From Elusimicrobiaceae bacterium (GTDB lineage Bacteria > Elusimicrobiota > Elusimicrobia > Elusimicrobiales > Elusimicrobiaceae), in NCBI GenBank assembly GCA_028700325.1, contig JAQVSV010000015.1, forward strand, positions 1-36,185: a DNA stretch of 36,185 nucleotides, read 5' to 3'. Shown in pieces: positions 16,997 through 21,172 of the stretch (its first letter is position 1; each line of letters opens with the position of its first letter). The notes under the pieces were generated by a model. It was not told the DNA's origin. It did not search any database and saw only the letters and a list, made by a program, of their open reading frames with translations. Both the position numbers and the translations under genes were made by a program.

Positions 16997-17012
16997 GTTT
17001 TCATGTGAAAAC
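16997..17012. promoter_or_regulatory. parS-like site 1
   Basis: GTTTTCATGTGAAAAC: 7-bp perfect arms around a central TG, extended by two more symmetric bases on each side (16995-17014). It resembles the widespread parS consensus TGTTTCACGTGAAACA and lies directly upstream of parA-parB. An identical 16-mer occurs 141 bp downstream. It is a probable ParB loading site. Confidence 0.8.
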
Positions 17013-17137: not shown

Positions 17138-17153
17138 GTTTTCATGTGAAAAC
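17138..17153. promoter_or_regulatory. parS-like site 2
   Basis: Second exact copy of GTTTTCATGTGAAAAC, 14 bp before the parA start codon. Its position between the parA promoter region and the ribosome-binding site means ParB binding here could also repress parAB. See site 1 for the comparison with the consensus. Confidence 0.8.
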
Positions 17154-17167
17154 CACAGGCGGGTACT

Positions 17168-18004
17168 ATGGGCGAAATAATCTCGATAGCCAATCAGAAA
17201 GGCGGCGTGGGGAAAACCACGACGGCAATAAATCTTTCCTATGCGCTGGCCTGTCTTAATCAGGAAGTGCTTGTGATAGACATGGACCCGCAGAGCAACA
17301 CAACCTCCGGGCTGGGGGTTTCGCCTGAGGGGGTAAAGGCTTCAATTTACGACGTGATAAGCGGCAACGCCAAAGCGGAGGAAGCCATTGTCCCGACCGC
17401 CATGGAATGGCTGGACGTGCTCCCTGCCTCCCGTGATCTGGCGGGGGCGGAGGTGGAGCTTGTTTCAGTGCCGGGCCGGGAGGGAATTTTAAAAGCCGCG
17501 CTTGCGCCCGTCAGGAAGATGTACAGATACATTTTTATAGACTGCCCGCCATCACTGGGTCTGCTCACTCTTAACGCGCTCACCGCGTCCGACTCCGTGC
17601 TTATTCCGGTGCAGTGCGAATATTACGCAATGGAAGGGCTGGCGCATTTTATGGATACGGTGTCCAAAATCCAGACTTTCATAAATCCCGCCCTTAGAGT
17701 GGACGGCGGTGTGATGACGATGTTTGACGCCCGCATCAACCTTTCAAACCAGGTTAAAAGCGAAGTTTCAAAGTTCTTCGGAAACCGGATTTATCAGACC
17801 CCGGTTCCGCGGAACGTGCGTATTGCCGAAGCGCCCAGTTTCGGGCAGCCTATTTTCACTTATGACCCCGCCTGCCGCGGGGCCGTGGCGTATTTTGATC
17901 TGGGCAAGGAATTTCTTGCAAGACGCGGAGCCGATCCGGCGGTTTATGCCGACGCCAAGCCGTTCGTCGCCGATGAAATGCTGGATTACGATTTAGGAGA
18001 TTAG
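17168..18004 (+). CDS. parA: Chromosome-partitioning ATPase ParA/Soj
   Basis: A 278-residue deviant Walker-type ATPase that forms a nucleoid-bound gradient to move ParB-parS complexes. The deviant Walker A KGGVGKTT is at 11-18 with the signature lysine Lys11; DMDPQSNTTSGLG is at about 38-50 and DCPPSLGLLTLNAL near 123. There is no N-terminal HTH extension, so it is the small chromosomal type. The C-terminus has about 20 residues beyond the usual end. The ribosome-binding site is weak (GGCGGG). parB begins three bases after the stop, and two parS-like sites lie upstream. Confidence 0.96.
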   Translation: MGEIISIANQKGGVGKTTTAINLSYALACLNQEVLVIDMDPQSNTTSGLGVSPEGVKASIYDVISGNAKAEEAIVPTAMEWLDVLPASRDLAGAEVELVSVPGREGILKAALAPVRKMYRYIFIDCPPSLGLLTLNALTASDSVLIPVQCEYYAMEGLAHFMDTVSKIQTFINPALRVDGGVMTMFDARINLSNQVKSEVSKFFGNRIYQTPVPRNVRIAEAPSFGQPIFTYDPACRGAVAYFDLGKEFLARRGADPAVYADAKPFVADEMLDYDLGD

Positions 18005-18007
18005 ACT

Positions 18008-18868
18008 ATGAGACAGGCTTTGGGAAAAGGGCTGGACGCGCTTATTAAAAGAACCGGAGATGTTTCCGGCCGGGATTCCGCGGCGGTTAAGAAAATTCCC
18101 GTCAATAAAATCAAACCCAACCGGTTCCAGCCGCGCAGGGTGTTCAGCGACGAGTCGCTGGCGGAACTGGCCCAGTCCATCAAACAGCACGGGCTGGCGC
18201 AGCCTATCATAACAGCTTACAATGCGCAGGAAAAGTGCTATGAACTGATAGCCGGAGAGCGGCGCTGGCGCGCCTGCCAGCTTGCCGCCATGACCGAGAT
18301 TGACGCTATTGTTCATGAAGCCATGCCGGATGAGCAGATGCTGGGGCTTGCGCTGGTTGAAAATATCCAGCGGGAAGACCTTAATCCCATTGACACCGCC
18401 ATGGCGTACCGGGAACTGGTGTCAAAGTTCAACGTGCCGCAGGGCGAGCTGGCCCGCTATTGCGGAAAAGCCAAATCAACAATTTCCAATACACTCAGGT
18501 TGCTGGAGCTGGACGCGGATATTCAAAGGTCCATTCAGACCGGGCTTATCACCGAAGGGCACGCCCGTGCTTTGCTTACCGTGCCGGATAAAGAAGACCG
18601 GAAACGGCTTTTTCAGCTGGTGGTTGAAAGAAAAATGACGGTTCGCGACGCGGAAACCGCCGCCCGCGGTACAGGTGAACGGGAAAAAACGGCCAGACCG
18701 CGCAGACATGTTCCGCCAGAGGTCGCCGCATTTGAAGGGAAGCTGCGAGAACGGCTGGGCACCAGGGTGGAGCTCAAGCAAGGCCGCAAGGGCAAGGGCG
18801 CGCTTGTCATTCATTATCACAGTCTTGAGGACTTGGAGCGCATAGCGGGTTTGCTGGCGGCGAACTAG
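18008..18868 (+). CDS. parB: Chromosome-partitioning protein ParB/Spo0J
   Basis: A 286-residue CTPase clamp that binds parS and spreads. The N-terminal RQALGKGLDALI motif is the ParA-stimulating peptide, with an Arg/Lys-rich start. The CTP-binding core shows QPRRVF, QHGLAQPI and GERRWRAC (83-90). The parS-reading helix-turn-helix is at about 150-175 (ARYCGKAKSTISNTLRLL), followed by GHARALL. The C-terminal dimerisation part (about 235-286) ends with a helix. TAGGAGAT in the end of parA provides the ribosome-binding site. Confidence 0.96.
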   Translation: MRQALGKGLDALIKRTGDVSGRDSAAVKKIPVNKIKPNRFQPRRVFSDESLAELAQSIKQHGLAQPIITAYNAQEKCYELIAGERRWRACQLAAMTEIDAIVHEAMPDEQMLGLALVENIQREDLNPIDTAMAYRELVSKFNVPQGELARYCGKAKSTISNTLRLLELDADIQRSIQTGLITEGHARALLTVPDKEDRKRLFQLVVERKMTVRDAETAARGTGEREKTARPRRHVPPEVAAFEGKLRERLGTRVELKQGRKGKGALVIHYHSLEDLERIAGLLAAN

Positions 18869-18899: not shown

Positions 18900-19904
18900 A
18901 TGATCAGTTTCCGGGGATGGGAAAGAGTGGCTGTCGCGATTTTGCTGGCAGCGGGGGTTACGGGCGGTTCTGCGTTCGCGCAGACTGAAACCGACAGTGT
19001 GCCGGTGGTATACGGGCTTGCTCCGGATTTAAACGAGTTTTATCTTTATGCCGACGGCGGCTGGGACGGCAACTGGTATGTTGGCTACAGCAACTGCTGG
19101 CTGATAAAGCTGCCGTCTATCGCAAAAAAAGGCTACAAAAAAGCGTATATAGGAGCGCGGTTGGGCCGGGCGAAAGGGTTTCCTGTTCCGAACCGGCCGT
19201 GGGAAAAACAGCCGGTTGACGGCAAAATATACATGGGGCTTTCCAAAGATGGCGGGTTCAATTCCCGGCAGAGCTATTTTCTGGTTGACAATAATGACAT
19301 CCCGCTGGAGGCCCAGCCTAAGGAAACGATAAAAGGGGTAGGCGGGGCGCAATGGTTCTGGACGGAAGTGCCGCTTGACGCGGTTTCATCCGTCAAACCG
19401 AATTATCTGGCGTTATGGGCCGAATCCGATTTCTTTACCGATGCGGCAAAATCGCCGATAATCGCCGGCGCTTCGCGCAAAAATTCCGGCGAGGATGCGG
19501 TATGGCTTAACAGTTCGCAGAAAGGCACTCCGCCGCGCGACGCAAAAACCGCGTTTGAACTGCCGATCAAGAACCTCATACCGGCCATGGCGGTCAAGCT
19601 GATTCCTGAAAACGAGCTTTCGGTGGTTGCCCGCGCGTTTAAAGCAGTTGCCGACGACACTAGCCTTGTGCTTTCCTTTTCGGTTATCGGGCAGGATGTA
19701 AGCCGGGCCTGGATCGAAATTTCATACGACAGGTTTAACTGGCTGCGGTTTTCAAAATTCATGTTTGAACCTCCGTACAGTTTCACCGTGCTGAATAAAA
19801 ATCTGCCGAAAGGAAAGTATTACTTCCGGGCGGTAGCGACGGATGCGCTTGAAAATGTCGGTTATAGCGAAGTGCTGGCCATGAATGGGGCGGATGTCCA
19901 GTAA
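18900..19904 (+). CDS. Secreted protein of unknown function with a C-terminal Ig-like region
   Basis: A 334-residue protein I do not recognise. Residues 1-27 form a signal peptide ending at a probable AFA-Q signal peptidase I site. The rest is rich in aromatic residues, Asn, Gly and Lys, as in beta-sandwich exported proteins. The part about 35-220 (DLNEFYLYADGGWDGNWYVGYSN, KKAYIGARLGRAK) has no motif I can name. About 240-330 resembles an Ig/fibronectin-like fold (ISYDRFNWLRFS.. YYFRAVATDALENVGYSE). It follows parB by 31 bp with AGGGAGG before the ATG, and ends just before a strong terminator, so it probably shares the parAB transcript or has its own promoter within parB. Confidence 0.7.
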   Translation: MISFRGWERVAVAILLAAGVTGGSAFAQTETDSVPVVYGLAPDLNEFYLYADGGWDGNWYVGYSNCWLIKLPSIAKKGYKKAYIGARLGRAKGFPVPNRPWEKQPVDGKIYMGLSKDGGFNSRQSYFLVDNNDIPLEAQPKETIKGVGGAQWFWTEVPLDAVSSVKPNYLALWAESDFFTDAAKSPIIAGASRKNSGEDAVWLNSSQKGTPPRDAKTAFELPIKNLIPAMAVKLIPENELSVVARAFKAVADDTSLVLSFSVIGQDVSRAWIEISYDRFNWLRFSKFMFEPPYSFTVLNKNLPKGKYYFRAVATDALENVGYSEVLAMNGADVQ

Positions 19905-19947
19905 GTTTTTGAAGTGCGGGATTCGGTTTGTGCAATTGATATGATGA

Positions 19948-19980
19948 GCTTCCCCGGTTTCAATCCGGGGAGGCTTTTTT
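19948..19980 (+). terminator. Intrinsic terminator after the secreted-protein gene
   Basis: A 10-bp stem GCTTCCCCGG / CCGGGGAGGC (one G-U pair), a 7-base loop and a run of six T. It ends the lepB-nfeD-parAB direction of transcription. Confidence 0.88.
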
Positions 19981-20243
19981 ATGAAACGTTCCCGACTGCG
20001 CCATTAGCCGGTCGAGTGTTATTACGTTTTACCGGCAGGCGGGGGTTTTTGCTTGCAAACTTTGTTTGCCATGTTTACGCGGGACTATACCTCCCCCTGT
20101 TTTTGCTATGCCATGGCGGCAATCATTATGTCGCGCCGACCAGTGACGGATTTTTGTGAGCGGAATTTGTAAAATGCGCAAAAAGCAGGATCATTGCCAT
20201 TCTGGTGTTGTATCATGTCTGCTCAAAAAAAGATACGAATGTA

Positions 20244-20347
20244 TCCGGTATGAAAAAAACGGCAAATGATGAAAATAGCTGAAAAATCATGTTGCCCTGT
20301 AACGATTTTGCCCATACCGGACTATGCCATAAAGCAATACAGGGCAA
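20244..20347. repeat. Two interleaved perfect inverted repeats (pseudoknot-like)
   Basis: Pair A: TCCGGTATG at 20244-20252 with CATACCGGA at 20313-20321 (9 bp). Pair B: TTGCCCTGTA at 20292-20301 with TACAGGGCAA at 20338-20347 (10 bp). The arms alternate A-B-A-B, the topology of an RNA pseudoknot or of two alternative hairpins. Both pairs are perfect. The region is AT-rich and non-coding. Confidence 0.5.
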
Positions 20348-20409
20348 ATTTGAGCGTTTTTGGCGTATTTTAATATAAAAATAGAAGCAAAATAGTATAT
20401 TTATAACAG

Positions 20410-20425
20410 AATATGTGGACATATT
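20410..20425. promoter_or_regulatory. 16-bp palindrome, possible operator
   Basis: AATATGT, GG, ACATATT: perfect 7-bp arms in an AT-rich tract. The form is that of a dimeric repressor site, but no adjacent gene explains it. Confidence 0.3.
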
Positions 20426-20685
20426 GTACACGGCATAAAACAGAAGAAGATTTTGCGTCGGTTAAAAAAGCCGATTAAAAAAATGAGGTTTATACATGCG
20501 GAGCATTTGCGTCCGGGCGATAGCGGCCATAATAAAAAAACAGATGAATAGCAGGCTGGACAGGTTTGTCTGTCCGGGGGATCGCGGAAAGCGGATTTAA
20601 AATTTCGCCAAAAGAAAACCCTGCCTCCGCCTTGAACCCGGGCGAACGCCGAAAACAGATTAAAAAACATTTGGAAGCGGCGGCT

Positions 20686-20969
20686 GTTGCCGTATTTCAC
20701 AAATACCGAAAAAGCAGAACGCAAGTGGCGGCAACAATGTATTTTCGGTGTTGTCGTATGTCGGCAAGTATCGAAAAAGCAAAACGGTCAGCGAGAGCGC
20801 CGCATTTTTCGCCATGGTGCCGTATGCCAGAAAAGCAAAATCTGTCACGGCGATGTTCATGCGGTTGTAATGCTGGTTTATACCGCAAGTATCGAAAAAG
20901 CAAAACCGGACTGCTCTGCCTGTTGTCGGCTTCGGAAATTCCGTTCCGGCAATACCGAGAAAGCGAAGC
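20686..20969. repeat. Decayed periodic repeat array, CRISPR-like geometry
   Basis: Five related units of up to 36 bp start near 20686, 20750, 20816, 20871 and 20934. The best conserved 3' half has the core TCGAAAAAGCAAAAC. Unit 2 (20764-20785) and unit 4 (20885-20906) share 22 identical bases. Unit 1 and unit 2 also share the 5' end GTTG-C/T-CGTAT, and unit 3 lacks about 10 internal bases. The unrelated intervals are 28-30 bp (20721-20749, 20786-20815, 20842-20870, 20907-20933). Once the deletion in unit 3 is allowed for, the period is a constant 64-66 bp. This fits 36-bp repeats with 29-30-bp spacers, as in type II CRISPR arrays, but repeats this divergent would mean a dead array, and no cas gene is in the window. 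Weaker echoes may extend upstream (near 20640-20656 and 20360-20393). Confidence 0.5.
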
Positions 20970-21172
20970 CGGGCCCCTGCGTTTTAAAAGTGAGTTTTAA
21001 AAAATTGAAAACGGCCGGCAACTGCTGCGGGAATTTTCAGACCGGGAAACTGTATTTTACGGTTTACTGCGGTTCGCTTCCCTGGCGGGCGCGTTGAAAT
21101 ACAGTTTTGCTCGGCAAGCCGCCGTTGCGCAGGGCCGCGCGACCGGGCTGAAAACTTGCGAAACCCGCGGGT

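Follow-up and report, generated by a model that had tools for sequence, protein, structure and literature searches.

Orphan elements with repeats and spacer-like intervals, but without cas genes, have been described as False-CRISPR or CRISPR-like elements, and many of them are tandem repeats (Zhang and Ye 2017, PMC5294841). In five relatives of the bacterium studied here (G001, G037, G018, G029 and G002), arrays linked to cas9 are of type II-C and have a period of 66 bp (36 + 30). The array reported below belongs to a draft genome of 2.2 Mb and lies on its contig C15, a stretch of 36,185 nucleotides that is called the window here. With the type II arrays of the relatives it shares repeats of about 36 bp and unrelated intervals of about 30 bp, whereas its repeat sequence is unrelated to theirs, its repeats are not identical to each other, a second repeat family is present, adjacent cas genes are lacking, and neither a convincing tracrRNA anti-repeat nor convincing spacer matches were found. 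Like the False-CRISPR elements (PMC5294841) it consists of orphan repeats without cas genes. That class, however, has no spacer diversity, whereas the intervals in the window differ mutually and the repeats are too diverged for TRF, which reported nothing on the array.

Eight repeat units in two families

The array consists of eight units that are about 64 bp apart (56-66 bp). Units v1-v3 belong to one family and are followed by u4-u8, which correspond to units 1 to 5 of the initial annotation:

20511..20530, plus strand: v1, second repeat, GTCCGGGCGATAGCGG...; self-match at lag 61, v1 against v2 p = 0.01, v1 against v3 0/500
20572..20602, plus strand: v2, second repeat, GTCCGGGGGATCGCGGAAAGCGGATTTAAAA; from self-match, shuffle and unit-comparison tests
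20638..20666, plus strand: v3, second repeat, CCGGGCGAACGCCGAAAACAGATTAAAAA; from self-match, shuffle and unit-comparison tests
20685..20720, plus strand: u4, 36 bp, TGTTGCCGTATTTCACAAATACCGAAAAAGCAGAAC
20749..20785, plus strand: u5, with a 22-bp core identical to that of u7
20815..20841, plus strand: u6, about 10 bp deleted, TGGTGCCGTATG and AAAAGCAAAA retained
20871..20906, plus strand: u7, with the same 22-bp core as u5
20934..20969, plus strand: u8, 5' third diverged

Five related units with a regular period had been described, and they were recovered at 20685-20969 with ends at 20720, 20785, 20841, 20906 and 20969, corresponding to spacings of 65, 56, 65 and 63 bp. A direct-repeat search gave four copies of a 28-nt unit (20693-20969), between which the damaged fifth copy fits. 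The top self-match is an exact 22-mer at lag 121, and the 22 identical bases reported for 20764-20785 and 20885-20906 are thus exact; this core reads GCAAGTATCGAAAAAGCAAAAC. Core identity among the units is 68-100%. Since u4, u5, u6 and u7 resemble each other more than chance would allow over the initial 11 bases of the 36-bp unit, 36 bp is a fair unit length; u8 is without this 5' third. The loss of about 10 bp that had been proposed for the third unit agrees with the drop in spacing to 56 bp, but the support for u6 as a unit is weak (E = 7.4).

The same period extends upstream, where v1-v3 (20511-20666) are spaced by 61-64 bp, so that the array begins about 180 bp before the start given initially. 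Here, 20511-20526 matches 20572-20587 at lag 61 and 20574-20602 matches 20638-20666 at lag 64, and the stretch before 20690 is significant by itself, its best self-match being reached in 0/2,000 shuffles. Units v1-v3 are alike among themselves and show no likeness to u4-u8 beyond chance; we therefore distinguish two repeat families on one period.

The repeat periodicity is real, as confirmed against a null of 2,000 dinucleotide-preserving shuffles. The 22-mer self-match scores 44, compared with 31 for the best match among the shuffles, and within the range of 55 to 67 five lags reach a score of at least 20, against no more than three such lags in any shuffle (0/2,000). In the shuffled-sequence test that had been suggested against chance periodicity, none of the 2,000 shuffles equalled the observed set.

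The intervals of u4-u8 measure 27-30 bp, and their pairwise likeness is no higher than that of shuffled sequences; decay at the pace of the cores should have left each pair clearly above its observed score. In this respect the initial description of decayed repeats of about 36 bp with unrelated intervals and no cas genes nearby was borne out. Since the intervals are at chance level and the cores are 68-100% identical, a tandem duplication of whole units followed by simple uniform decay does not fully account for u4-u8: either the cores were constrained, or interspersion dates from the outset. A neutral tandem repeat (minisatellite) is not borne out, as whole-unit likeness including the interval is not seen.

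A rearranged non-coding gap downstream of parB

The gene order around the array is as follows:

17168-18004: parA
18008-18868: parB
18900-19904: ORF334, an unnamed 334-aa gene between parB and the gap
19905..21172, no strand: non-coding gap of 1.27 kb that holds the array, a synteny breakpoint with convergent genes on either side

The ORF334 protein has no Pfam domain; its gene adjoins parB in many Elusimicrobiota, a conserved arrangement, and the homologues retrieved with it come mostly from Elusimicrobia, so that the host is taken to be an uncultured member of the Elusimicrobiota. Past the gap lie two minus-strand glycosyltransferase genes, the first of which is convergent with ORF334. While parB and ORF334 are kept together in most of the relatives examined, the gene that comes next differs: in the sister family it is asd, encoding aspartate-semialdehyde dehydrogenase (Pfam-confirmed in one example), and in L028/L054 it is an Endonuclease_1 gene. 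Neither of these follows ORF334 in the window, and an endonuclease homologue is found on another contig (L162). The array thus sits between convergent genes at a site of rearranged gene order, a setting in which persistence of relic DNA can be expected.

Between an nfeD-like gene and parA we observed two copies (16997-17012 and 17138-17153) of the diverged parS-like near-palindrome GTTTTCATGTGAAAAC. With at most one mismatch allowed, the canonical TGTTTCACGTGAAACA occurs neither in this genome nor in 57 of 60 relatives, but in G046 and G042 exact copies of it are paired about 365 bp apart on the contigs bearing ORF334, which suggests parS drift in the Elusimicrobiota.

The gap shows no codon signal like that of the neighbouring genes in any frame, its mechanical ORFs contain no Pfam domain, and an Rfam search of the region gave no match. 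Its RNA fold is scarcely better than that of shuffles (z = -1.07). Promoter-like sites were not found in the region, and terminator-like sites are confined to the vicinity of the upstream gene.

Beyond chance level, the unit was not found elsewhere in its own genome, of which the largest contigs (C1-C14, C26 and C27) were covered solely by pattern, DNA and model searches. The unit model, run over 341 Elusimicrobiota genomes, returned no array except the one in the window; the remaining hits were isolated weak matches, with many falling in a single conserved stretch of proS codons, and around the best ones no matching periodic signal was seen. The search advised for units and spacers hence identified the unit as unique to this locus, both in the genome and among the 341, and left the spacers without a convincing match.

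Relic, CRISPR remnant or recognition sites

As the array has no tie to CRISPR and was found nowhere else, it is most likely a dead relic, probably inert and of little consequence. More specifically, we see about an even chance that interspersed direct repeats, non-coding and confined to this one locus, have left it as a relic. Short segments may have been duplicated during the rearrangement at the gap, or a larger repeat locus may have been cut down, and the remnant would now be decaying through substitutions and short deletions such as that in u6, presumably with no present function. The spacing that slips by small amounts and the one unit that is about 10 bp shorter are as in decay, whereas cores that are 68-100% identical next to chance-level intervals argue against it; the relic explanation does not decide between constrained cores and interspersion from the outset.

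The array could also be what is left at the trailing end of a type II CRISPR array that was deleted, with its cas genes and leader-proximal repeats lost; this appears rather doubtful to us. The type II geometry initially noted holds insofar as 36-bp units alternate with unrelated intervals of constant length (27-30 bp), close to the period of 66 in the Cas9-linked arrays of the five related genomes, but the further step to CRISPR is not supported by repeat, Cas1, anti-repeat or protospacer. The genome does carry an N-terminal Cas9 fragment of about 550 aa, detected with TIGR01865 as probe (PF18541 missed all controls), which is cut at the end of contig C44 (L088, 17-1666, minus strand) and so is not adjacent to the array. 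The cas locus and tracrRNA that were to be looked for are accordingly represented by a partial Cas9 only: Cas1 was not found in the assembly, no cas gene is among the ten window proteins tested, and a good anti-repeat was not found. None was seen beside the C44 fragment, where the contig end truncates the locus, and the best candidate near the array, which lies at 20161-20181 and matches over 22 bases (p = 0.013 with one of the four units), is not convincing. An apparent tRNA gene lies close upstream of the C44 fragment.

The repeats themselves also speak against CRISPR ancestry. Among the Cas9 proteins compared, those of G037 and G001 are nearest to the resident one (52% and 48% identical), and the repeats of both genomes end in a common AGGGCAACCCTAAC. 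This end, expected for the resident Cas9 as well, has no copy in the assembly even with one mismatch allowed. The window unit has no likeness to the repeats of G001, G037, G018 and G002. Instead of near-identical direct repeats we find divergent cores, a unit (u8) that has lost its 5' third, and a second, unrelated repeat in the same array. Spacers gave no match to phages and plasmids. Of four spacer 20-mers searched for as exact patterns in IMG/VR, one matched without extending; decay is expected to hide true matches in both searches. This match, of spacer 2 to IMGVR_UViG_3300021168_000001, was rejected, as the exact 20 bases stop at both ends; it apparently falls in codons of a C-x-x-C motif. 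By a rough estimate, an exact 20-mer is expected by chance about 0.1 times per pattern in IMG/VR, and two control 20-mers gave none. The locus is a caution that near-type II geometry, even together with a genuine Cas9 fragment in the genome, is still insufficient for a CRISPR call. If it were a CRISPR relic after all, it would show to what extent an array can decay while its period still permits recognition.

A functional array of recognition sites, in which a protein would bind the 22-bp core and the intervals would be free to vary, is unlikely in our judgement. It would account for the sharp difference in likeness between the cores, which are conserved, and the intervals, which are unrelated, and the position downstream of parA-parB would suit it. 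The core, however, is no palindrome, helical phase is not kept at spacings of 65, 56, 65 and 63 bp, the array was not found in other genomes, and promoter-like sites are lacking. Moreover, a parS-like pair is already present upstream of parA, so that a second centromere is not needed; a centromere (parS) role of the array was rejected on this ground. Quite improbable is a lineage-specific site array serving an unknown DNA-binding or RNA-guided system, with two unrelated repeats on a shared period of about 64 bp.

Descent from a coding sequence, i.e. remnants of a gene in which an S/N-T/I-E-K-A-K segment was repeated or copied, is already disfavoured and extremely unlikely. In translation the units give Y-x-A-N/S-T/I-E-K-A-K/E, and over 14 bases they match the proS of several genomes (YAANTEKAE), but the period is no multiple of three and the coding alternative of the initial annotation found no support in codon signal or domains. 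The clue of silent third-position changes is weak, since three changes falling on one codon position have p = 1/9 and all are A-to-G. A proS origin, considered on account of the recurrent matches in the 341 genomes, was dismissed: the match to the genome's own proS is confined to the 14-mer, with unrelated flanks, and the spacers have no proS match.

An artefact of chance or composition is next to negligible; A-rich cores do raise chance matches, but the dinucleotide shuffles contradict this reading, which is already refuted for u4, u5, u7 and u8, and no other non-coding window of comparable periodicity was seen when 1.37 Mb of this genome were scanned in 2,510 overlapping windows of 1 kb. The stronger windows with periods of 50-75 that were inspected elsewhere have spacings that are nearly all multiples of 3 (for example 69, 33, 24, 27, 51, 45 and 12) and, as expected, fit repetitive proteins or coding repeats. 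Strong tandem repeats of 69 and 33 bp on further contigs of the genome, at L105:727-1071 and L158:5320-5649, respectively, probably represent repetitive proteins.
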